Both the position numbers and the translations under genes were made by a program. Below the pieces are notes generated by a model. It ran no database searches and was not told the origin of the DNA. It saw only the letters and a program-made list of their open reading frames with translations. Shown here piece by piece: positions 10,729-53,490 of a stretch of DNA of 64,000 nt. This stretch comes from Clostridia bacterium (GTDB lineage: Bacteria > Bacillota > Clostridia > Oscillospirales > CAG-272), in the NCBI GenBank assembly GCA_017942005.1, contig JAGAVJ010000026.1, forward strand, positions 1 through 64,000, in the 5' to 3' direction. How positions within the stretch are numbered: the stretch's first letter is position 1; the number at the start of each line of letters is the position of its first letter.

Positions 10729-10748
10729 ATTGAAAGATAGAAACAAGA

Positions 10749-10884
10749 GTGTTTTGTGACGCTCGCTGCTTGAAAAGCGGGCGATGTCCGCCTTGGGGCG
10801 CGTCACAGCTCCAGAAAAAGAGGAAATAACTTTCACGAGAGTGAACGTTATGGTCATAAATATTATAAAAAGGAATCAGCATTC
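10749..10884 (+). ncRNA. Structured leader module upstream of the dnaJ-like gene, with a 12-codon leader ORF
   Basis: It contains TTTTGTGACG...CGTCACA (P2, 10755-10807) with a branched insert, including CGCTCGCT pairing with AGCGGGCG. The SD AAAAAGAGGAAA follows. Then comes a hairpin (ATAAC, TTCAC, loop GAGA, GTGAA, GTTAT; 10826-10851) and ATGGTCATAAAT. That ATG (10850) opens a 12-codon [15 protein letters not shown], whose TGA overlaps the dnaJ-like ATG at 10885. Confidence 0.6.
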
Positions 10885-11526
10885 ATGACAGATCCGTATA
10901 AGGTATTGGGCGTGTCGAGAGACGCAACCGATGAAGAAATCAAAAAAGAGTACCGCAATCTCGCACGGAAATACCATCCAGACAACTATGCCGGAAGTGA
11001 TTTAGCCGATCTCGCGGGTGAAAAAATGAAAGAGATCAACGAGGCATATGACCAGATACAAAAAGAACGCGCAGGCAAAACATCCGGGGGAGGATACGGC
11101 GGCTATCAATCGCAAAGCGGCGGCGCATCATACCGCGGCACAGGCGGCAGTGCAGGCGGTGGAGCGGCAGGGCTTGGCAGAGTGCGGCAGCTGATCAACG
11201 CCGGACGCTTTGCAGAAGCCGGAATCATCCTTGACAGCATTGCGCAGGGACAGCGCAATGCGGAGTGGAACTATTTAAAGGGATGTGTACTGCTCCAGCG
11301 CGGCTGGTACTATGACGCACAGAAATACTTTGAGCTTGCGTGCTATATGGATCCAGGCAACACCGAGTATCAGGCGGCGCTGCAAAACATCCGCAATTCT
11401 GCCGGACAGTACGGAAAGACGTACCGTCAAAGCGCCGGATGCTCGGCATGCGATATGTGTACCGGTTTGATTTGTGCGGACTGCTTGTGTGAATGCTGCG
11501 GAGGCGATTTGATCCGCTGCTGCTAA
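10885..11526 (+). CDS. DnaJ-domain protein with TPR-like and Cys-rich tail
   Basis: 213 aa. Residues 1-62 are a J domain with the HPD tripeptide in KYHPDNY, so it should stimulate an Hsp70 ATPase. A Gly/Ser-rich linker (about 68-94) leads to a TPR-like segment (about 95-160). The C-terminus has ten cysteines, including CDMC and a final CC, and probably binds metal. It lacks the standard DnaJ zinc domain, so it is not the general chaperone DnaJ. Its start overlaps the stop of the upstream leader ORF, and a local AAAAAGGA can also serve as SD. Confidence 0.8.
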
Positions 11527-14123: not shown

Positions 14124-14222
14124 AAAATAAATCCTTTATAATCATAACACAGTTTTTTTCTGTTGTCAATGGATATGGAAAAAGAAAATGCAGAGTGACA
14201 GCGTATTCTTTATTCTGAAACT

Positions 14223-14294
14223 CTAAGCTGTGCAGCCTCACCCACAATTCCACGGGAAAGGAAGCTTTCGTAAACGAAAGTCAAGGTTATTTTT
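14223..14294 (+). promoter_or_regulatory. Leader module copy upstream of spmA
   Basis: A degenerate P2 region ending in CACAATTCCAC is followed by the SD GAAAGGAA. Hairpin P3 comes next (CTTTCG 14265-14270, loop TAAA, CGAAAG 14275-14280), then AAGGTTATTTTTATG. The first ATG of the usual ATGGTTATAAATATG is AAG here, so the second ATG (14295) is the only start. Confidence 0.6.
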
Positions 14295-15128
14295 ATGGCA
14301 GGAACGGTATTTGGCGTTTTTTGTGCGATTTCGTTTCTTTGCGCGGTGTATACGGGAAACCTCGCCGCATACGGAAATGCGTTATTTTCCGGTGCTTCGG
14401 ATGCGGTGACGCTGATGCTGACGCTGGGCGGTGCGATGTGTCTTTGGTGCGGCGTGTTGGAAGTGTTCCGGGAAGCAGGCGCAATGAAACTGGTGGAAGG
14501 GCTGCTGTCGCCGCTGCTCGGATGGTTGTTTCCGGCGGCAAAGCGTGCCAATGGAGGAGAGGGCGCCGCAATGGAGGAAATTGCCGCGTCCTTTGCCGCC
14601 AATCTGCTTGGTATCGGCAATGCGGCGACACCGCTTGGTCTTGCCGCAATGCAGGCGCTGGAGGATGCGGCGGTCCAAGAGGATGCTAATACAGGACAAG
14701 GTCATATTATACAGGAAACGCCCTTACAGGAGACGGCACAGCATAACGGTACAAAAAATATCCCTACACAGGGACACGCGGTGAGAAAAACCGAAAAAAC
14801 AGCAGAAAGGTCTTCTGGTCTGTGGTCGGACATGACGATGTTTACCGTACTGAATACGACACCCATTGCCTTGCTGCCTACCACATTGCTGTCGCTTCGG
14901 TTTGCGGCAGGCTCTGCAAATCCCGGACAGATTCTGCCGGCGGTGTGGATGGTGTCGACGGCTGGTTTTTTCTTTGCTGCGATCATAACGCGCGCGCTGT
15001 GCACAGCAAAACCGTCATGCTGCGGAAAAAAGAAGGGCGGTGTTGATCAGAATACGCGCAGAACCCGCAAAAGAACGGAAACATCTGCTGCCGCAGAAAA
15101 ATCCACGGTACTGGGAGGAATACAATGA
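14295..15128 (+). CDS. spmA: Spore maturation protein A
   Basis: 277 aa, a multi-pass membrane protein of the nucleoside-recognition (Gate) family. With SpmB it is linked to core dehydration during spore formation in Bacillus. Seen here: GGAMCLWCGVLEVFREAG and EEIAASFAANLLGIGNAATP, both typical. It is about 80 residues longer than usual because of a polar Gln/Thr-rich insert (about 125-176) and a basic tail. It overlaps spmB by 4 bp. The leader upstream is a copy of the SD-hairpin module. Confidence 0.88.
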   Translation: MAGTVFGVFCAISFLCAVYTGNLAAYGNALFSGASDAVTLMLTLGGAMCLWCGVLEVFREAGAMKLVEGLLSPLLGWLFPAAKRANGGEGAAMEEIAASFAANLLGIGNAATPLGLAAMQALEDAAVQEDANTGQGHIIQETPLQETAQHNGTKNIPTQGHAVRKTEKTAERSSGLWSDMTMFTVLNTTPIALLPTTLLSLRFAAGSANPGQILPAVWMVSTAGFFFAAIITRALCTAKPSCCGKKKGGVDQNTRRTRKRTETSAAAEKSTVLGGIQ

Positions 15129-15900: not shown

Positions 15901-15961
15901 GTCTGAAACTCCATTTTTCAGACTGTGTTTTGTGGCTTTCAGCCTCAATTCCACAAATGAA
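15901..15961 (+). promoter_or_regulatory. Partial leader module (P1-P2 only) upstream of asnS
   Basis: P1 is GTCTGAAA/TTTCAGAC (15901-15908 and 15916-15923) and P2 is TTGTGGC/GCCTCAA (15930-15936 and 15942-15948), then TTCCACA. The usual SD-P3 part is missing. An AAAGGATAAGAA lies directly 5' of P1, so SD and start codon are again separated by hairpins. Confidence 0.6.
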
Positions 15962-17356
15962 ATGAAAAGAGTCTGTATTAAAGAAATCTACAAGGATATG
16001 GCCGCTTTCGACGGAAAATGCATCACCGTCGCAGGCTGGGCAAGAAATATCCGTGCAAGCAACGCCTTTGGCTTTATCGAATTGAATGACGGCAGCTACT
16101 TCAAGAATCTTCAGGTTGTTTTAGAGGATGAAACGCTTGCAAACTACAAGGAGATCGTCAAACAGAATATCGGCTGTGCACTGATTGTCACCGGTACCAT
16201 TGTTCTGACACCCGATGCCAAGCAGCCGTTTGAAATGAAGGCGGAGACTGCCTGTGTTGAGGGGGCGTCTACGCCGGATTATCCCCTGCAGAAGAAACGC
16301 CACTCCCTTGAATATCTGCGCACCATTGCACATCTGCGTCCCCGTGCCAATACCTTTAACGCGGTTTTCCGTGTTCGTTCCACTGCTGCATACGCAATCC
16401 ATAAATTCTTCCAGGAGCGCGGCTTTGTCTATGTCAATACCCCGATTATTACCGGCTCCGACTGTGAAGGTGCGGGCGAGATGTTCCGCATTACCACATT
16501 GGATGTGGATCATCCGCCGAGAACAGAGGAAGGAAAGGTCGACTGGTCTCAGGATTTCTTTGGAAAATCCACAAACTTGACTGTCTCCGGTCAGCTGGAA
16601 GCCGAAACCTTTGCCATGGCATATGCAAATGTATATACCTTTGGTCCGACGTTCCGTGCAGAAAACTCCAATACCCAGCGTCATGCCGCTGAATTCTGGA
16701 TGATGGAGCCGGAGATTGCATTTGCCGACCTGTCTGACGATATGGAGCTGGCGGAGGATATGATCAAATATGTCATCCGCTATGTGATGGAAGAATGTGC
16801 GGCGGAAATGGAATTTTTCAACAGCTTTGTGGACAAAGGTCTGATTGACCGTCTGACAGCGCTTGTCAACAGCGACTTTGGCCGCGTGACTTATACAGAG
16901 GCGGTGGAGCTTCTTAAGAAATCCGGACAGAAGTTTGACTATCCGGTCGAGTGGGGCATTGATTTGCAGACCGAGCACGAGCGGTATCTGACCGAGGTTA
17001 TTTTCGGTAAGCCGGTATTTGTCACCGATTATCCGGCAGAAATCAAGGCGTTCTATATGCGTCTCAATGACGACGGCAAAACGGTTGCCGCGATGGATAT
17101 GCTGGTTCCCGGCGTCGGTGAATTGATCGGCGGTTCTCAGCGTGAGGAACGGCTGGATTATCTGGAACGCGCAATGGAGAAATTCCACTTAAATCCCGAA
17201 GATTACTGGTGGTATACCGAGCTGCGCAAGTATGGCGGTACGCATCACGCAGGCTTCGGTCTTGGCTTTGAGCGTCTGATTATGTATATCACAGGTGTAT
17301 CCAACATCCGTGACGTAGAAGCATATCCGCGCACAAAGGGCTTGGCAGAGTTCTGA
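15962..17356 (+). CDS. asnS: Asparaginyl-tRNA synthetase
   Basis: 464 aa, class IIb synthetase charging tRNA-Asn. An N-terminal OB-fold anticodon domain (to about residue 105) leads to the catalytic core with motif 2 ([20 protein letters not shown]) and motif 3 ([15 protein letters not shown]). The start at 15962 gives [12 protein letters not shown], the family-like N-terminus. It has no SD within 20 bases. A GTG at 15932 is an in-frame alternative. Length and motifs are normal. Confidence 0.93.
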
Positions 17357-19108: not shown

Positions 19109-19274
19109 GTCTGAAAATAAGATTTTCAAGAGAAACCATTAAAATGGTTTCTCTTACCGTGATTTTGTGACGTTCGTTGCTTGAAAAGCAAACGATGTCC
19201 GCCTGCGGTATAACCGCGTGCGGGCGCATCACAACTCCACAAAGAAAGGAAAACTTCGCTTGTGCGGAGTTATG
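19109..19274 (+). ncRNA. Leader module, first tandem copy before the LCP gene
   Basis: Layout: GTCTGAAAAT-AAG-ATTTTC, hairpin AAGAGAAACCAT/ATGGTTTCTCTT (19128-19155), a branched P2 from TTTTGTGACG to ATCACAACTCCACA (19163-19240), the SD AAGAAAGGA, hairpin P3 AACTTCGC-TTGT-GCGGAGTT (19252-19271), then ATGGTTATAA. The ATG at 19272 opens a 29-codon frame running into the next copy. Confidence 0.65.
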
Positions 19275-19281
19275 GTTATAA

Positions 19282-19384
19282 GTCTGAAAATAAAATTTTC
19301 AGACTGTGTTTTGTGGCTTACGCCACAACTCCACATTAGAAAGGAAATAACTTTTACAAAGTAAAAGTTATGGTTATAAATATG
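19282..19384 (+). ncRNA. Leader module, second tandem copy before the LCP gene
   Basis: P1: GTCTGAAAAT/ATTTTCAGAC (19282-19304, perfect). P2: TTGTGGC-TTAC-GCCACAA (19311-19328, perfect). Then CTCCACATTAGAAAGGA. P3: ATAACTTTTAC-AAA-GTAAAAGTTAT (19361-19371 is the right arm; 11 perfect pairs), then ATGGTTATAAATATG. The right arm of P3 includes the first two bases of the ATG at 19370. Confidence 0.7.
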
Positions 19385-20761
19385 TCAAATCACAATCAAC
19401 AACCGCAGAATGAGAAGGATACGATACAACCGATTGAGGAACCGCTCCATACCACTGCGGAAAATCAAAAAACAGAGCTTCTGAATGATGAAATTCCGTC
19501 GGAAGACATTCCGGAAATTCTCCAGACCGGTGCAGAAGAGGCTGACTCCGATGTATCTGCATCGGATACATCCACATCGGATGCATCCGTTTCGGAGCAT
19601 GACCTTGATACAGAAGATGCGATGGGAAAGACGTCGAAAAAAATACCGTTTGGCGGAAAAGTTGCGCTGATTGTCGGCATTGTGATTCTTGCGCTGCTAT
19701 TGATTGGCGGCGGTATTGTGCTTTCGGTCTTCAACAGACTGCGCGGAGAAGACGTTGTTCCGATTGTGGATCGTGATTCCGCATATTCTATGCATGAGCC
19801 AGAGGATACCATTATCACCATATCTCTTGAAGACTATGCAACCATGACAGAGGAACCGGAACAAACCGATGCGCCGCCTGTCACAGAGAAGGTTCCGGCG
19901 AAAGACCCAGCAAAAGATACAGCGAAGGTGACGGAGAAAACGCCGCCGAAAAAAGATCCCAAACCGATTTATCGACAGCCGAAAAAGGATGAGAATGTCA
20001 CCAATATTCTGCTTTTGGGGCGTGATTCCCGCAATGCGGACTGGGAAAACGGGCGAACGGACTCGATGATCATTCTCTCTTACAATCAAAAGACACACGA
20101 GGTCAAGCTGATTTCTCTGATGCGTGATATGCTGATTCCGATTGAAGGACACGATTATAACCGTATCAACACGGCGTTTGCATTTGGCGGTATCGGTTTG
20201 TGCATCAATACGCTCAATGACGTGTTCCAGCTGGATATCCAGAATTATATGACCATCGACTTTAATGGAATCAAGAAAGTAATTGATGCCATTGGCGGCA
20301 TTGATGTCACGTTGACGGAGTCAGAAGTGGCGCTTTATCAGGAACAGGAAGTGCTCGACAGCTCTGTAAAAGCAGGTGTGGTGCATCTAAACGGATCAAA
20401 GGCACTGCATCATGCACGCAACCGTGCACTGGGTGCAGATTTTGAGCGGACACGCCGTCAGCGCGATATTTTAATGGCGATCTATCAAAAGGTGACATCG
20501 TCGATGTCGCTGAACGATGTGACGGCGCTGGTTACAACTGCGCTTGACTGTGTGACGACCAACCTGTCCACCACGACGATTTTATCGCTTGCAACCGATG
20601 TCATGAACCATAAAAACGACATCACGTTCAACAATGCGCGGCTGCCGTTTGACGGTACCTATGTAGGCGGATGGTATAAGAAAATGCTTGTCATCCAGTT
20701 TGACTTGGAGAAAAATATTGAGAAGCTCCATGCACTGCTGTACGGCGAGGGAAATTCATAA
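19370..20761 (+). CDS. LytR-CpsA-Psr (LCP) family protein
   Basis: 463 aa. A long acidic, Ser/Thr-rich cytoplasmic N-terminus leads to one membrane helix (about 93-118), a Pro/Lys-rich stalk and the LCP domain (about 205-410). LCP enzymes transfer glycopolymers from lipid carriers to peptidoglycan outside the membrane. The catalytic arginines and acids are intact: GRDSR, GRTDSM, SLMRDM, YNRINTAF and RTRRQRD. ATG at 19370 (MVINM) and 19382 are both possible. A strong terminator follows at 20847. Confidence 0.88.
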   Translation: MVINMSNHNQQPQNEKDTIQPIEEPLHTTAENQKTELLNDEIPSEDIPEILQTGAEEADSDVSASDTSTSDASVSEHDLDTEDAMGKTSKKIPFGGKVALIVGIVILALLLIGGGIVLSVFNRLRGEDVVPIVDRDSAYSMHEPEDTIITISLEDYATMTEEPEQTDAPPVTEKVPAKDPAKDTAKVTEKTPPKKDPKPIYRQPKKDENVTNILLLGRDSRNADWENGRTDSMIILSYNQKTHEVKLISLMRDMLIPIEGHDYNRINTAFAFGGIGLCINTLNDVFQLDIQNYMTIDFNGIKKVIDAIGGIDVTLTESEVALYQEQEVLDSSVKAGVVHLNGSKALHHARNRALGADFERTRRQRDILMAIYQKVTSSMSLNDVTALVTTALDCVTTNLSTTTILSLATDVMNHKNDITFNNARLPFDGTYVGGWYKKMLVIQFDLEKNIEKLHALLYGEGNS

Positions 20762-20846
20762 TTCCATCATACCCTATCTGCCGCGGCAGGAACTTCTTAC
20801 AAGAGAATTTTTCTGCAAAAATTAAATCAATCAAATCTATGACTTG

Positions 20847-20885
20847 AACGCACACAGTTTTCATAATTGTGTGCGTTTTTTTCTT
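20847..20885 (+). terminator. Terminator after the LCP gene
   Basis: AACGCACACA pairs with TGTGTGCGTT (20847-20877), followed by a run of T. Nothing else is seen in 20762-21010 except a TATAAT at 20987. Confidence 0.88.
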
Positions 20886-21010
20886 ATCGTTAAAATTTTC
20901 CATTTAATGAAAATTGAAAGGCAAGCATAAAATGGAGATATGTCGGTAATACTTTTTTTAGAAAATGAACCTTTTGTAAATTATATTATAATGATAGGAG
21001 ACGGCGGCAT

Positions 21011-21133
21011 ATGATCAGCTTTATGTTCGGATTGTGGATCGGCGGCGCAGTAGGTGTTGTTACCATGTGCCTTTTGCAGGCAGGGAAAGATTATGAAGCC
21101 ACAGATTTGTCATCCAAGGAATTCAAGCAATGA
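21011..21133 (+). CDS. Small membrane protein, DUF3789-like
   Basis: 40 aa: one membrane helix (FGLWIGGAVGVVTMCLLQAG) followed by a short polar tail ending EFKQ. The TAGGAGA SD lies 8-9 bases upstream of the ATG at 21011, and a TATAAT is at 20987. The GLWIGG...VMCLLQ pattern matches my memory of the tiny DUF3789 proteins common in Clostridia, function unknown. A stem of the CTGCTGCA type follows. Confidence 0.65.
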   Translation: MISFMFGLWIGGAVGVVTMCLLQAGKDYEATDLSSKEFKQ

Positions 21134-21141
21134 CATAATAA

Positions 21142-21270
21142 AAGAGACTGCTGCAAGATGAAACCATGCAGCAGCCCGGGATCACAAAGTGATCCGAATT
21201 CGCTTTTTCGCTTTATAAAAGCGAAAGGGCGAATTTTATAGGCTGGCGCATATACATGCGCCAGCCCTTT
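21142..21270. repeat. Composite palindrome repeat, copy 1
   Basis: Terminator-like CTGCTGCA/TGCAGCAG (21148-21174) is followed by GGGATCAC-AAA-GTGATCC, GAATTCG with CTTTTTCGCTTT/AAAGCGAAAGGGCGAATTT, and GGCTGGCGCAT/ATGCGCCAGCC ending in CCTTTT. The same order recurs at 27749-27912 with one hairpin added. Positions 21270-21465 hold no gene I would defend. Confidence 0.75.
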
Positions 21271-21465
21271 TGCCTATCATGATTGCTTTCTGATTTTAAC
21301 AGAAAATTCTGCTTTTCAAAGAAGGCAATATGGCTTTAGATACAATGAAAGGGTCGGTGTTTGAGGGAGCAGGAATATCTTTTGAAAAAGATCGTTTGAT
21401 CGTTTCGTATGATTATGATGGTATCCCATCACGTCATATCTTATTTTGTGTGACCTTGAAAGGCA

Positions 21466-21639
21466 TTAGATTCCGCATCTGCGGCAGGTGTCGCAGCCGC
21501 TTGTGCATCCGCTGCCGCAGCCACAGCCACAGCCGCAGCCGCAGCCGCCGTTGTTGCAGCTGCAGATCAGGAGAAGAATGATCAGAATCCAGATCCAGGA
21601 AGAGTTGTCGCCGTCAAACAGGTTGCAAAGGCAGTTCAT
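21466..21639 (-). CDS. Small Cys/Gly-rich protein
   Basis: 57 aa on the minus strand. It starts MNCLCNLFDGDNSS, then a hydrophobic helix (WIWILIILLLI), then a run of alternating Cys-Gly (about residues 33-42) and a Cys-rich end (CDTCRRCG). Fourteen cysteines in all. The ATG at 21639 has GGAGG seven bases upstream. Its minus-strand upstream region carries CATACAAT, like a mother-cell sporulation sigma -10, but no matching -35 is clear. Similar high-cysteine small proteins occur in Clostridia; function unknown. Confidence 0.72.
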   Translation of the reverse strand: MNCLCNLFDGDNSSWIWILIILLLICSCNNGGCGCGCGCGCGSGCTSGCDTCRRCGI

Positions 21640-21959
21640 AATGATACCTCCATAAAGTTGTGGATTGGTGTTTCCTTTTAGGAGTGTGCGTGTGTGTTTC
21701 GCACGCTCCTATATCATTGTATGATGGGCGTGAAAAAGTGCTACAAAAACTTTTGACAGGATTTATTTACCGGGGATGAGATGCCGCATTGTCGGATATC
21801 CTATATTCTGCGTTCCATGGTGACCCAAAAGGCGGATAAACAGATTTTATTGTGTGTTTATTTCAGAAAAGTGGTTTTCTAACCGATGTATCACAGCGTC
21901 TGTTTATCCCAATGCATTTTGTGTATGATGGAGCGCAAGCGTTTTCAACGGAAAACAAA

Positions 21960-22059
21960 TAGTTCCAATAAAGAAAGGAAATGACTTTTGCTTTCAGTAA
22001 AGGTTATGGGTCAAGCGGGACGAAACGATGCGCAAACCCTGTGGAACACGTTCCTGTGA
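21960..22059 (+). promoter_or_regulatory. Leader module relic with a 17-codon ORF
   Basis: TTCCAATAAAGAAAGGAA precedes P3 (ACTTTTGC 21984-21991 with GTAAAGGT 21997-22004, two G-U pairs), then ATGGGTCAAG. The ATG at 22006 opens a 17-residue frame ending at 22059. The module part is homologous to 19339-19372. It belongs to the 495-bp interval 21640-22134, which holds no other gene. Confidence 0.5.
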
Positions 22060-22089
22060 TACCCTGTGTGTCGTTGTGACAGATATTAC

Positions 22090-22149
22090 AACATCACACA
22101 ATCAAGAAGATAACTTTTACTGGCACAAAAGTGAATGGTTAACACTATG
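22090..22149 (+). promoter_or_regulatory. Leader module upstream of the small coat gene
   Basis: CACAATCAAGAAG is followed by hairpin ACTTTT (22113-22118) / AAAAGT (22127-22132) and ATGGTTAACACTATG. It aligns with the LCP copy, with the loop changed and the lower stem partly lost. Confidence 0.55.
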
Positions 22150-22332
22150 GCTATCATTACTGCAAAGGAACTTGGTTCCCTTCAGGATCAGCTGAAGCTT
22201 GAAGAAAATCTTGTTCGTAAGTTTGAAGCATTTGCTGCGGAGACCAATGATCTTGCGCTGAAAAACAAGTATCAGGATATTGCCTCCCGCCATCAGAAGC
22301 ACTTTGACGCGCTGTATGCGCAGCTGAAGTAA
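22135..22332 (+). CDS. Small coat-F-associated protein
   Basis: 65 aa, helical, with LGSLQDQLKLEENLVRKFEAF and ASRHQKHFDALYAQLK. It resembles the short partner that precedes CotF-domain spore coat proteins in Clostridia, and here it sits directly before one. Start at 22135 (MVNTM) or 22147 (MAIITAKE). The second gives a more family-like N-terminus. Expression is probably sporulation-linked, by context only. Confidence 0.65.
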   Translation: MVNTMAIITAKELGSLQDQLKLEENLVRKFEAFAAETNDLALKNKYQDIASRHQKHFDALYAQLK

Positions 22333-22343
22333 TAGGAGAGAAA

Positions 22344-22440
22344 GTCTGAAAATAAATTTTCAGACTGTGTTTTGTGACTTCGTCACAATTCCACAAGGAA
22401 AGGAAAACTTCGCTTGCGCGAAGTTATGGTTATAAATATG
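22344..22440 (+). ncRNA. Leader module upstream of the CotF-like gene
   Basis: P1: GTCTGAAAA/TTTTCAGAC (22344-22365). P2: TTGTGAC-TTC-GTCACAA (22372-22388). Then TTCCACAAGGAAAGGAA. P3: AACTTCGC-TTGC-GCGAAGTT (22406-22425, eight perfect pairs), then ATGGTTATAAATATG. This is the most compact complete copy. Confidence 0.7.
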
Positions 22441-27748: not shown

Positions 27749-27912
27749 CGGAGCTGTTGCAAGTTTTCAACTTGCAACAGCCCGGGATCACGAAGTGATC
27801 CGAATTCGGCGTTTTCACAGTGGATATTGATAAAAATCCGCTGTGAAATTTCGCTTGGAAAAGCGAAAAGGCGAATTTTATAGGATGGCGCATGTTAATG
27901 CGACAGCCCGCA
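27749..27912. repeat. Composite palindrome repeat, copy 2
   Basis: GCTGTTGCAAGTT/AACTTGCAACAGC (27753-27781), GGGATCAC-GAA-GTGATCC, GAATTCG, an extra hairpin TTTCACAGTGGAT/ATCCGCTGTGAAA, CGCTTGGAAAAGCG, GGCGAATTTTATAGG, and a decayed GGATGGCGCAT...ATGCGACAGCC. Same scaffold as 21142-21270 with one hairpin swapped in. It is in the ~490-bp gap 27543-28028, which holds no gene. Confidence 0.75.
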
Positions 27913-28028
27913 TTCTTTGTAGGATTGAGACTGAGTTACAGAGCGGAGCAGCTTACTGCTGTTTCAGCGGCAGAAGCCACAGAACAAGAAATCATTGAAT
28001 TGATTTCTCTGAAAATATATTTTCAGAC

Positions 28029-30461
28029 TTAGCGCTCTGCGGTATAGCGGTATTGATACCGTCCGCCGGGGGCACAGTCGCCGTTCTGGTACAGATCAAG
28101 AATATCGGGTTCTCCCTGTTCGTTTTCGGTGAGGTTGTTATCCGCCCACTTGAAGCGCAGAACAAAGCCGTCGTCCTCCAGACCCAGCATTGCACGCGGA
28201 ATTTTCACCTGGAGCACTGCTTTTGAAACGGTGTAATCGACGTCTCCGACCTGTTCCCATTTCCAGCCGCCAAGCGATTTTTCAAGTACTCCGGCAGTCT
28301 CGCGGTTCAACATGTACTCATAGGTTTCCCATGCGGCATCGTCTGTATCGGCGGTATTGAGGAGCAGCCGCATCCAGTTTGGATCGGTGGAAGTGGTGAT
28401 ATCATTTGCACAGGCAACATAGAAGTACAGATTTTCTGCATCGTGTGCGACCTTTGCTTCCACAATGTCATTGCGTCCGGAGGTATTTGTGTAGTGGGTA
28501 CCGACATAACCGTCCGCATCACGGTCACCGGTGTTGCCGATGTAGGAATAATACGGTGTGACGTCGTCCCACTGAGAGAGTGCGCCGTGAATGTCAATGG
28601 TCTTTACACCGCTTGCCTTGGGTGCGGGTTCTGTTCCCTTGAAGCGTCTGATAAAGGAAACCATTTGATAATAGTAATTATCGCCGAGCGCACCGGCAGA
28701 GGGTTCAATATCACGGCTGTTTAAGTCGTCGTATTCATCGGGGAATGCATTTTTAACGTTCTGCCATTCCTCATGCCGTCCGGCAACCCATTCGTTCCAG
28801 CCGGTGATAAAGACGAATTCGGGATCCACTTCCAGCGCATACTCACACTGCTCTGCAAAGTTTGCCCCCCACAGCATTGCATCCTCACGGGTATCATAGC
28901 CCTCTGAGGTGTACGATCTGCCAAAGACGCCTTCGTTGTTCATCGGGGTCAGACCTGCTTTTTTGGAAAAGTTCTGTGCGACACCGACGGTCATCTGTTC
29001 CGGTGTGCCGTCTTCATTATAATAGACCTGCTGCGGATAGTTTGACAGCCAACCCCACTGATCCTTATGCGAATAGCTTTCCGTATAAAGAGGCTGTCCG
29101 GGACGGAAGGTAAAGAAGTCGGCAATTTCTGCCTGGATATGATCTGTTTTATCCAGAGCATCGGGGTATGCCATAATCAGCGGCTTGCCTTCCCAGTAGA
29201 ACCACAGATCCTGATAGCTTGCATCGCGGTAGATATCGAGATACAGATTCGTCAGCTGCACATTGGTATTATCACCCGGCCCAAAAGGAAGAAGGAATGC
29301 AATCTGCGGTGTTTTTACACCGTCTGCACGTGCTTCGGCAAAGACGTCTAAGAGTGCAAGGTATGACGACCGCCATGTAAAGGTACCGTTGGTATTGTCA
29401 AAGATGACGACATCTACGCCGGCATCGGCAAGCAGCTCTGCATGCTTGCGCAGGACCCAGCGATCAATGGTGGAATAATAGCCGAACAGCGGTTCATCCC
29501 AGAAATGCGGGCTGCCGAGCGGTCCCCATGCCTCATGCTGGATATCGTATGCGGCTTCCGGGTGTTCTTTTAGAATTTCGGTGACATTGTAGACCGCGTT
29601 GGAAGCCGCATGGCTTGCATGCCATGTCCAGTAGAACAGGCCGACATAGCGGTCGTCACGCAGATTGCCTGTTTCTTCATTGGTAGGAAGCACTCTGCCA
29701 AGCGCATCTACTGCATCCCAGGAAGAGGGCGCTGCATTGCGTACATTCAGAATATGATTGTCGTCATACACGACTTCGGGCGGTGTTGTCACGGTTTTCG
29801 ATAAATCGATCATGGAGCTGCACGGATTGAATGCAGTTTCGGGCGTCATCGTAAAGTGAATATTCGCCTGAAATTCACCGTCTGTCTCAATGCCGCCCTT
29901 GTAGACATAGCCCTCGGAGACATCGGAGAAAAAGTTCCAGACGCCGACGGACTGCACCGCATCGGAAAGGCACAACAGATATTCTCCTGCCGGAATTTCA
30001 TCGAAATAGAAGTCGAGGAAGGCGTTATCGCTGAAGTCTTCATACAGTTCGGTTGCAAGCGGTGTTCCGGTCAGCGTCTTGACAAAAGAGTCGTTCCATG
30101 CATACAAGGTGAAGCGCAGATTTCCGATGTCATCAGACCATGACGGGCAGCAGACGTCCATACCGTCAAACGGCGCGTTGACGGAAAAGCGGTATCCGAC
30201 CGAGTCGCCGGGATCCACGCGGAGCGCTTCCTTGTTTGCGCTTTCGTCGTACATGGAGACGGTCGTACTGCGTCTGTTGATAATACCATCCGGAAGCGGA
30301 GCCTCTGTGACTGGTTCTTCTGCAGTGGTTTGTGTTGCGGGGACGGTTTCATCATTGTCTTCGGCTTTTGTGCTGTCGCATGCTGTCAGCAACAGCATTG
30401 CATACAAAAGCGCAAGGAAGCCGATGAAGGACCGTGTGTGAAATTTTTGAATCTTCTTCAT
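28029..30461 (-). CDS. Lipoprotein with glycoside-hydrolase-like barrel and C-terminal sugar-binding-like domain
   Basis: 810 aa. A signal peptide ends in a lipobox (LLLTAC), so it is membrane-anchored outside the cell. A Thr/Glu-rich linker leads to a beta-sandwich (about 70-215). The middle (about 255-600, with GLFYWTWH, DVVIFDNTNG and FITGWNEW) resembles GH71/GH99-type barrels. The C-terminal 180 residues (AKVAHDAENLYFYVAC and WMRLLLNT) look like a CBM9/DOMON fold. A polysaccharide-degrading or binding role is inferred; the substrate is unknown. ATAGGATT lies before the ATG. Confidence 0.6.
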   Translation of the reverse strand: MKKIQKFHTRSFIGFLALLYAMLLLTACDSTKAEDNDETVPATQTTAEEPVTEAPLPDGIINRRSTTVSMYDESANKEALRVDPGDSVGYRFSVNAPFDGMDVCCPSWSDDIGNLRFTLYAWNDSFVKTLTGTPLATELYEDFSDNAFLDFYFDEIPAGEYLLCLSDAVQSVGVWNFFSDVSEGYVYKGGIETDGEFQANIHFTMTPETAFNPCSSMIDLSKTVTTPPEVVYDDNHILNVRNAAPSSWDAVDALGRVLPTNEETGNLRDDRYVGLFYWTWHASHAASNAVYNVTEILKEHPEAAYDIQHEAWGPLGSPHFWDEPLFGYYSTIDRWVLRKHAELLADAGVDVVIFDNTNGTFTWRSSYLALLDVFAEARADGVKTPQIAFLLPFGPGDNTNVQLTNLYLDIYRDASYQDLWFYWEGKPLIMAYPDALDKTDHIQAEIADFFTFRPGQPLYTESYSHKDQWGWLSNYPQQVYYNEDGTPEQMTVGVAQNFSKKAGLTPMNNEGVFGRSYTSEGYDTREDAMLWGANFAEQCEYALEVDPEFVFITGWNEWVAGRHEEWQNVKNAFPDEYDDLNSRDIEPSAGALGDNYYYQMVSFIRRFKGTEPAPKASGVKTIDIHGALSQWDDVTPYYSYIGNTGDRDADGYVGTHYTNTSGRNDIVEAKVAHDAENLYFYVACANDITTSTDPNWMRLLLNTADTDDAAWETYEYMLNRETAGVLEKSLGGWKWEQVGDVDYTVSKAVLQVKIPRAMLGLEDDGFVLRFKWADNNLTENEQGEPDILDLYQNGDCAPGGRYQYRYTAER

Positions 30462-51791: not shown

Positions 51792-51904
51792 TTTGGCGGT
51801 TCCTTTCTTGATCTTTATAGTATATATGGCTTGCCAGTATTTATATAACATGTGCAGAACCAGAAGCGCTTTGCGCATGTATGATATCAATTTCATCCTC
51901 AGAC

Positions 51905-52000
51905 GGTCGGGAAGGGAATGATTCCTTTTTGATGTGGAATTGCGGCGCAAGCCGCAAAATCACGGTATGCGGATGATTCTAAAATCGTTCGCTTAAAAAT
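51905..52000 (-). promoter_or_regulatory. Leader module copy upstream of the solute-binding lipoprotein
   Basis: On the minus strand: CTAAAAT/ATTTTAG hairpin (P1-like), CCGTGATTTTGC, P2 TTGCGGC-TTGC-GCCGCAA (51957-51940, perfect), TTCCACATC, then AAAAAGGAATCATTCC. P2 pairs as GCGGC/GCCGC where other copies have GTGGC/GCCAC or GTGAC/GTCAC. The module is about 100 bases from the gene start. Confidence 0.6.
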
Positions 52001-52001
52001 T

Positions 52002-52460
52002 TTAGTTACAGACTGTTTTCTCCATAAGATAGTTTGTTAAGGAAATTCCTCCCCTGACAACCTGTTGTTCTTTGATCACACGGTACCCTCTTTTCTCAAA
52101 AAAGGGTCTTGCGGTAATCGATGCGTGTGTTGTGATGGTATCTGTGCTTACTGCTTGTTCCAGTTGGTCGCAAAGTGCGGTGGCGATTCCCTTTCCCTGA
52201 TTGGCATAATGAACATACAACCTGTCCAGATAGCCGGTGCTGTCGATATCCCCAAATCCGACGATCACGTTGTTGTCTACAGCGACAAGGCTGTGATGTG
52301 CCAAAAACGATGCATCCCACGCTGCAAGCGCAATGTGTCCTGTCGCCCATACATCTAACTGTTCCTTTGTATAGTCTTTGGCATTGACAGTGTGGACGGT
52401 TTGATAAAAAAGCGTGGCAATTTCGGGACAATCTGCGGACTGATATTTTCGGATTTCCAT
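52002..52460 (-). CDS. GNAT N-acetyltransferase
   Basis: 152 aa. Typical GNAT order: N-terminal IRKYQSADCPEIATLFYQTV, a central strand VAVDNNVIVGFGDID, the acetyl-CoA loop NQGKGIATALCDQLE, and a C-terminal ASITARPFFEKRGYRVIKEQ. Substrate unknown. Relatives include YafP-like enzymes. The gene points away from the lipoprotein gene start region and stands before a VanY-like gene in the same direction. Confidence 0.82.
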   Translation of the reverse strand: MEIRKYQSADCPEIATLFYQTVHTVNAKDYTKEQLDVWATGHIALAAWDASFLAHHSLVAVDNNVIVGFGDIDSTGYLDRLYVHYANQGKGIATALCDQLEQAVSTDTITTHASITARPFFEKRGYRVIKEQQVVRGGISLTNYLMEKTVCN

Positions 52461-52515
52461 GGTTATGACATGATCTTTTTACACAGGAAAAGATCGTTCC
52501 TTTCTTATTAACGGA

Positions 52516-53490
52516 TTATGATAATACGCCCGTGACGTAATAATACCCATAGGTGTTGTCAAAGGAAACCTCTACATCCGAGAGGGTGTCTGGAATGTAG
52601 ATGGTTCCTTCCGTCGGTGTCTGTCGATAGATGACGTAAGTGTCGGTTGTGCCGTCTTCATCCGTATAGTCAATCATATAATACCGTCTTCGGGCAGTAT
52701 AATTCTTTTCAATATATTCCTCCAGCGGCATGCGGGTCTTGTAAAGCAGCGCCGCGTGCGGCATACCGACATAATGAATATGCCACGGCTGAAAGAACAC
52801 GCCTGTCCATTCGCCTTCCCAGAACGGATAACGAATGGTAAATCCAAACCGCCATGCGTTGTCCTGAAGCCATTTGGACAAATCGGCGCGCATATAGGTG
52901 CGGAAATCGACACCGTCTACCAGCAGATCAATTGATGTGCCGGTAAGGTGTTCACTCGTTTCGTAGTAGTCAAGCAGATAGCAGTCGTTGCCGTGATCTT
53001 TTTCGGGTACTGCACCATCGATATAGCTGTCGCCGAGGCGGAACCGTTCTCCGGTCTCTGCTTCTGCTGCTGTCAGAAGGTCTTGCAATGCCTGTGCCGC
53101 ACCGTGTACCATGGTTACTGTGCCGTATCCGTCAAGCGCGGTTTCTTCCAAAAGCGGTTCAAAATCCATGTTATGGATATAATAGCGGTCGTTCAGAATG
53201 TAAAGACCGTCGGTAAAGCGAATGTCCTCCCGTTCACAGTCCCCCTTCATCAATGCGTCCAGCGAATAATAGGTAATTTCGGTTTGGGGGTCGCAGATGT
53301 CCTCAATAAAATCCGTGTGTGTCATCTCCGATAAGCGATCCATTTTGCGGCTGTGAAAATACTTTTCTGTGATTGCATAGGGAATGTTCGGGCGTGCAAT
53401 CAAAAGGGTGATCCAGATGATGAGCAGAATCCCGATAAAAATACCCCAGTTTCGTGCAAGAATCAGCCAGCGCCGGGTTCGGTTTTTCAT
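52516..53490 (-). CDS. VanY-family D,D-carboxypeptidase
   Basis: 324 aa, anchored by an N-terminal helix (about 12-33) and facing outside. The M15B zinc site is visible: SEHLTGTSIDL (His and Asp ligands, SxHxxGxxxD) and PWHIHYVG with the third His. It trims D-Ala from peptidoglycan stem peptides, or acts as an L,D/D,D peptidase of similar type. An extra N-terminal domain (about 34-130) and C-terminal beta region (about 260-324) are unusual. GAAAGGATTC precedes the ATG. Confidence 0.82.
   Translation of the reverse strand: MKNRTRRWLILARNWGIFIGILLIIWITLLIARPNIPYAITEKYFHSRKMDRLSEMTHTDFIEDICDPQTEITYYSLDALMKGDCEREDIRFTDGLYILNDRYYIHNMDFEPLLEETALDGYGTVTMVHGAAQALQDLLTAAEAETGERFRLGDSYIDGAVPEKDHGNDCYLLDYYETSEHLTGTSIDLLVDGVDFRTYMRADLSKWLQDNAWRFGFTIRYPFWEGEWTGVFFQPWHIHYVGMPHAALLYKTRMPLEEYIEKNYTARRRYYMIDYTDEDGTTDTYVIYRQTPTEGTIYIPDTLSDVEVSFDNTYGYYYVTGVLS

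Follow-up and report, generated by a model that had tools for sequence, protein, structure and literature searches.

A dispersed RNA-structured leader element at gene starts of gut Clostridia and its probable spread into ribosome-binding sites

Described repeats and folded spacers compared with the leader element

ERIC and YPAL are short, multi-copy, non-autonomous repeats that are mobile by comparison of empty and filled sites, are co-transcribed, and form folded RNA (PMC2229807); they are described as intergenic, and the terms “start codon,” “ribosome binding,” and “Shine-Dalgarno” are absent from that review (PMC2229807). A folded spacer within a translation start is described for T4 gene 25, in which structure shortens the spacing between the Shine-Dalgarno sequence (SD) and AUG from 27 to 11 nt (PMC3014915). 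Here we analyze a stretch of 64,000 nucleotides (the window) from a Clostridia bacterium of the order Oscillospirales (assembly GCA_017942005.1, contig JAGAVJ010000026.1, positions 1 to 64,000), in which a structured leader element recurs ahead of unrelated genes. From comparison of its copies within and between genomes, we consider it probable that the element is mobile, enters ribosome-binding sites as an RNA-structured leader, and takes the place of their translation signals.

The element is like bcr1, ERIC, and YPAL in being a small, apparently mobile repeat with an RNA fold, but it lies in the interval from SD to ATG, brings an SD of its own, and has neither terminal inverted repeats nor a target duplication. 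Its hairpin P3 has the same geometry as the hairpin between SD and AUG in T4 genes 25 and 38, and would bring a spacing of 31–57 nt to mostly 11–13 nt; whereas the T4 spacer is fixed in individual genes, P3 is part of a leader, mobile by our reading, that has been copied into about 100 genes. HEARO and omega-RNA elements of the IS200/IS605 superfamily are mobile structured RNAs reported to insert beside ATGA or GTGA. The leader element, in contrast, has no match to the Rfam HEARO family and carries no reading frame, and the genomes rich in it contain little or no Y1 transposase. With REP/RAYT and MITE sequences it shares the character of dispersed short palindromic DNA; it differs from them in the lack of terminal inverted repeats, target-site duplication, or any multi-copy transposase that we could find, and in its strict position and orientation relative to genes. 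Literature searches did not find a description of the family, the nearest being ERIC/YPAL-type repeats and the T4 spacer. The sequence-only reading of the window had proposed that no named Rfam family fits, and a search of 4227 families at gathering and permissive thresholds indeed returned no match at the elements. (A cobalamin riboswitch, RF00174, lies at L194:5137-5356 on a related contig from a metagenome-assembled genome, MAG, and is unrelated to the element.)

Copies, anatomy, and placement at gene starts

Two covariance models were used: R1, built from 20 copies of the window's own genome (G000), both complete window copies included, and R2, built from 32 full-form copies that all lie outside the window. 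R1 gave at least 147 matches dispersed over G000 at E up to 1, and we put the copy number there at roughly 100 to 150. The pattern AGTYATGGTNATANNNATG, with at most one mismatch, occurs 126 times in this genome against twice for the reversed control, and BLAST with the window copy at 19282 recovered more than 40 near-full copies, with unrelated genes preceded by leader copies up to 99% identical over 98 nt.

The full element consists, in order, of a P1 hairpin, a three-way junction, YTCC, the SD AGAAAGGA, an optional hairpin P3, the right end ATGGTCATANNN, and ATG. In copies elsewhere, stem P2 closes the three-way junction with two inner hairpins, and in G000 this junction is shortened to hairpin P2. 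Most G000 copies have a P1 of GTCTGAAAAAT..ATTTTTCAGAC or GTTTGAAAGAT..ATCTTTCAAAC followed by GTGTT, a P2 of TTGTGRC..GYCACAA followed by YTCCACA and AGAAAGGA, and a P3 of ATAACTTTCAC..GTGAAAGTTAT, AACTTCGC..GCGAAGTT, or other sequence followed by GGTCATANNN and ATG. The internal SD is complementary to the 3′ end of 16S rRNA and nearly invariant among copies. Other families keep the P1 hairpin, junction, and SD despite quite different stem sequences; families f9 and f20 lack P3, with ATGGTCA..ATG immediately after the SD. A subgroup in the related genomes G002 and G007 (L268, L270, L281, L303, and L304) carries an extra hairpin, GAATTCCCGAATTTCGGGACGAAATTC, between junction and SD.

Both complete copies in the window lie on the plus strand, exactly as the sequence-only reading described them, and are matched by both models. 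The copy before an LCP gene (19282–19384; R1 E 6.8e-23, R2 E 3.5e-16; RNA folding z −6.8) comprises P1 at 19282–19304, P2 at 19311–19328, the SD GAAAGGA at 19339–19345, P3 at 19347–19371, the right end GGTTATAAAT at 19372–19381, and the start codon at 19382–19384. That before a gene with a CotF domain (22344–22440; R1 E 8.4e-16, R2 E 5.2e-15; RNA folding z −5.1) comprises P1 at 22344–22365, P2 at 22372–22388, the SD at 22398–22404, P3 at 22406–22425, and the start codon at 22438–22440, with an old SD, ataggagagaaa, upstream.

Across the 32 full-form sequences, 92.4% of cells pair and 18 of 42 pairs show double changes, with 107 double-changed cells compared with 31.5 ± 4.6 in shuffled and 14–25 in slid controls. 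Double-sided changes affect P3 as well as P1, the stem of the junction, and the two inner hairpins. The two-position covariation reported for P2 in the window holds genome-wide as well (inner position A-T 65, G-C 17, G-T 7, A-C 1; outer position T-A 86, C-G 4). YTCC is able to pair with GGAR of the SD; covariation there is weak in G000 (p 0.037), and such pairing was not retained as a conserved switch.

Among the 127 copies with flanks, 98 (77%) are followed by a sense open reading frame (ORF) of at least 60 codons and 92 by one of at least 100 codons, and at the left edge an antisense ORF of 100 codons or more occurs in 11 cases; a sense ORF of at least 100 codons follows 26 of 35 copies in G007 and 27 of 33 in G002. 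Of the 72 copies that have both an ORF and a well-defined right end, 53 place the ATG exactly 10 nt beyond the G of GGTCAT. Sequence comparison places the insertion in sense, a few bases 3′ of the native SD and about 3 nt 5′ of the ATG. The left flank ends in AA in more than 90% of copies and carries an SD-like motif in 51 of 79 cases, compared with 26% of random positions; when flanks are rejoined at the ATG, 45% show a match to the SD of 5 nt or more at 3–10 nt spacing, compared with 15% of shuffled flanks. Gene starts make up only 14 of the 46 non-coding AANNNATG sites in the window (∼30%), and the target therefore exceeds that motif. Tandem copies obey the same placement rule, joining as GGTCATAA|GTCTGAAAA with the second copy between the first copy's SD and ATG. 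The roughly 90 genes downstream of G000 copies are unrelated. A hairpin repeat of another kind, CAGCCCGGGATCACAAAGTGATCCGAATTCGC..GGCTGGCGCATATACATGCGCCAGCC, is present at 21144–21265; this kind adjoins many leader copies genome-wide and sometimes replaces P1 or P3.

In linear sequence the second ATG lies 31–57 nt from the internal SD, a distance too long for SD-ATG spacing. With P3 looped out it becomes 11–13 nt in 58 of 91 copies, though P3 itself spans 16–49 nt. Copies that have no P3 (L279, L286, L299, and L277) place the SD 7–12 nt from ATG, an ordinary spacing, and at C16:10320, C55:143356, and C55:85509 in G000 an unrelated repeat hairpin, GGGCTGTTGCAAGTTGAAAACTTGCAACAGCCC, replaces P3 with the spacing to the downstream ATG kept. 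Translation from the first ATG, giving an MVIX extension, was considered and rejected as a general rule: other copies have ACG or AAG there, or an in-frame stop next (GGTCATATAAATG, ATATAGATG), and the second ATG is kept.

Empty sites, conservation in place, and distribution

Empty sites were sought by comparing the N-termini of 15 element-bearing genes with those of sister species. Every ortholog readable at its start lacked the element and had a plain SD-spacer-ATG leader, among them asnS, glyA, trxA, plsX, hisD, and pheT, with empty-site leaders such as AATGAAAGGATCTCACCATG (glyA), AGAAAGGATTTATCGTATG (trxA), GGGAAGGGAAATCATCATG (hisD), and AAGAAAGGATATGATATAATG (asnS). The asnS orthologs of G008, G007, and G002 are all of this element-free form, and in sister species a pepM18-like gene likewise lacks the element. 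Within the close pair G007/G002, only one member has the element at rplT, L254, L258, L060, L267, and L275; at rplT, the filled site reads AACGAAGGAC[element]ATG and the empty site AACGGAGGATTATAATAATG. At one gene (L255 in G002, L263 in G007) the same SD-ATG gap holds a GTTTG-type copy in G002 and a GCGTG-type copy in G007, so more than one event of invasion or refilling has taken place in this gap.

Three copies common to G002 and G007 differ inside the element at only 4 of 445 positions (0.9%), compared with 38 of 450 (8.4%) in the 150 nt upstream and 107 of 1799 in the 600 nt downstream (Fisher p 3e-8 and 6e-7, respectively). A fourth shared copy, without P3, shows 1 change in 112 against 8 in 100 upstream. 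Homogenization from copy to copy is unlikely because the shared copies differ from one another; the leader therefore seems to be needed where it is located, as far as these comparisons reach. Together with the covariation and the three-way junction kept across families, this purifying selection in place indicates that the fold is under real RNA-level constraint.

R2 matched 49 of the 246 genomes of the organism's own family, in 27 of 71 genera, and 25 of 295 genomes in a sample of the order, from at least nine families; per-genome counts by R2 are lower bounds. Across 84,980 species genomes, a scan for the exact pattern found 39 copies, in MAGs labeled Clostridia, Oscillospiraceae, Lachnospiraceae, Christensenellaceae, and Candidatus Flemingibacterium from herbivore, horse, and chicken guts, while viral contigs and phage and plasmid records yielded zero copies.

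The sequence-only reading had also listed partial copies in the window. Those it placed at 10749, 14223, 15901, and 19109 were recovered with R2 E of at most 1.6e-6 (matches beginning at 10729, 14193, 15901, and 19130, respectively), those at 21960 and 51905 (minus strand) are weak, and that at 22090 is unsupported (R1 E 0.65). The copy at 19109–19281 (plus strand; R2 E 6e-9 over 19130–19280) is the first of a tandem, abutted by the complete copy at 19282, and has an extra P1-like hairpin, GAGAAACCATTAAAATGGTTTCTC, a long P2 with inner hairpins, an SD, P3, and GGTTATAA. The truncated copy at 15901–15956 (plus strand; R2 E 6e-8), consisting of P1, P2, and TTCCACAA, has neither internal SD nor P3 and sits between the native SD AAAGAAAGGAT, upstream of P1, and the asnS start. 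A copy with a long P2 at 10729–10864 (plus strand; R1 E 3.9e-8, R2 E 1.2e-9) precedes a gene with a DnaJ domain that starts at 10885; the usual ATG position in this copy holds no ATG. At 14193–14297 (plus strand; R2 E 1.6e-6, R1 E 0.29) lies a diverged copy with CAATTCCACGGGAAAGGA, a P3 of CTTTCGTAAACGAAAG, and AAGGTTATTTTTATG, similar to the GCGTG subfamily of G007.

The weak copy at 51874–51985 (minus strand; R1 E 2.1e-5, R2 E 0.05) is diverged, lies near a gene start, and keeps P2, TTCCACA, and AAAAAGGA; the gene has no Pfam match. At 21927–22015 (plus strand; R1 E 0.0096) there is a weak remnant of the P3 side, AGAAAGGAAATGACTTTTGC..GTAAAGGTTATGG. A possible P3-only leader at 52458–52497 (minus strand; R1 E 0.015 over 52458–52552) precedes a GNAT gene identified by Pfam and is composed of AGAAAGGA, a hairpin GATCTTTT..AAAAGATC, and ATGTCATAACCATG. 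One decayed copy, with P1, an extra P1-like hairpin, and P2, was found at 27872–28028 (minus strand; R2 E 0.0019); it was absent from the earlier list, lies just downstream of the minus-strand ORF at 28029–30461, and does not stand at a recognizable start. As for the genes downstream, the earlier assignments to LCP, coat, asparaginyl-tRNA synthetase, and DnaJ-like proteins agree with Pfam (LCP, CotF, AsnRS, and DnaJ-domain matches), and spmA was reduced to a sub-threshold Gate match.

Competing explanations and significance

By sequence, the leader element is inserted between the native SD and ATG and brings its own SD and a constant right end. If it does invade ribosome-binding sites, the element's SD would be expected to take over initiation, because 100–150 nt now part the old SD from the ATG. 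With P3 looped out, the effective SD-ATG spacing would stay near 11–13 nt, and this, with the element's own SD, would allow the insertion to be tolerated even in essential genes. Once inserted, the element would serve as the gene's translation leader and be held by purifying selection; the role of P1 and the junction may lie in mobility, in expression, or in both. The sequence-only reading had left a choice between an RNA regulator and a repeat that supplies translation signals. The latter is the better of the two and is well supported, the copies being dispersed, recent, placed between native SD and ATG, and equipped with their own SD; a regulator in the regulon sense is unsupported, because the downstream genes share nothing evident. 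What was found is the reverse of each outcome that had been named as fatal to that reading (no further copies, no pairs supported in P2 and P3, or copies mostly away from or antisense to gene starts): numerous further copies were found, both P2 and P3 show covariation, and the majority of copies stand in sense at gene starts. Missed at that stage were the position inside an older ribosome-binding site, the nature of P2 as a shortened junction and of P3 as a dispensable, looped-out spacer, and the mobility.

Several observations weigh against mobility into ribosome-binding sites. Terminal inverted repeats are absent, the left end GTYTGAAA and the right end GGTCATA not being inverted repeats of each other, and no target-site duplication was found, with flank matches at the tested offsets being single and at chance level. 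Neither a mobilizing enzyme nor an autonomous copy was found, although MAG incompleteness limits the negative for the enzyme. About one quarter of copies have no recognizable ORF downstream, the conservation in place is based on four copies in two species, and minimum free energy folding of some single full-length copies favors another fold. The asnS copy and C32:220343 in G000 stand before intact genes without an internal SD, which is thus dispensable in some cases; both (the former spanning 15901–15962) are short forms with P1, P2, and TTCCAC directly before the start codon and the native SD upstream of P1. A search of G007 with the left-half motif placed 11 of 11 matches inside known copies and gave no orphan halves in that genome. 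Y1 transposase was examined as a candidate driver and set aside: one gene with a stop is present in G000, and none was found in the element-rich G008, G218, and G187, all of these being incomplete MAGs.

A rather unlikely, though serious, alternative is a DNA-level repeat that targets AA|NNNATG. It departs from invasion of ribosome-binding sites only in the reason for the gene-start location, which would be a by-product of the target and of the loss of harmful insertions, and in the purpose of the fold, which would be transposition alone. The nearly constant AA before the left end fits such a repeat, as do several ORF-less copies that still have an ATG at +10; it accounts less well for the excess of copies at starts over the share of AANNNATG sites that are starts, the enrichment of SD motifs beside the insertion, and the conserved internal SD. 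That the element is instead a cis-regulatory RNA of the riboswitch or protein-binding type, with the junction or YTCC-SD pairing switching a large regulon on a general signal and duplication being secondary, appears improbable: the strong covariation, the junction conserved in a 5′ leader in several families, the weakly covarying YTCC-GGAR pairing in G000, and the purifying selection over the whole element would suit a regulator, but the downstream genes are unrelated, their sister-species orthologs lack the element, Rfam has no match, and short forms retain merely a plain hairpin.

We consider it quite improbable that the element is intron-like or skipped, either by removal from the mRNA or by passage of a ribosome from the old SD across the fold to the ATG, so that native spacing is restored. 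Removal does yield ordinary SD-ATG spacing, and the short copies without an internal SD before intact genes (asnS, C32:220343) would be explained, but a removed element would not need a near-invariant internal SD, let alone one at ordinary distance from the ATG in P3-less copies, and known self-splicing introns are far larger. The chance that unrelated leaders merely look alike, or that assembly produced the copies, is close to nil: some of the partial copies first proposed are weak (22090), but the 126 pattern matches against 2 in the control already refute this explanation, and the element was recovered independently in many genomes.

Beyond the reading of a mobile leader that replaces translation signals lies a broader proposal, which we hold tentatively and regard as a little more apt to fail than to stand: that the element belongs to a new class of bacterial mobile element that targets the ribosome-binding site itself, perhaps recognized on the mRNA or initiation complex, survives by means of a folded, self-sufficient initiation module, and has repeatedly, across an order of gut Clostridia, replaced the signals of ordinary genes, some of them essential. 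The upstream in-frame ATG in TTATGGTCATANNNATG also bears on annotation, as it can lead to wrong start calls in these genomes. If the proposal is true, selfish DNA in this order settles in a short segment that every bacterial gene needs and avoids harm by supplying a working replacement, which would link mobile elements, RNA structure, and translation initiation. The copies would then constitute more than 100 natural experiments on the distance that a folded spacer can put between SD and AUG, and would raise the question of which enzyme recognizes a ribosome-binding site.

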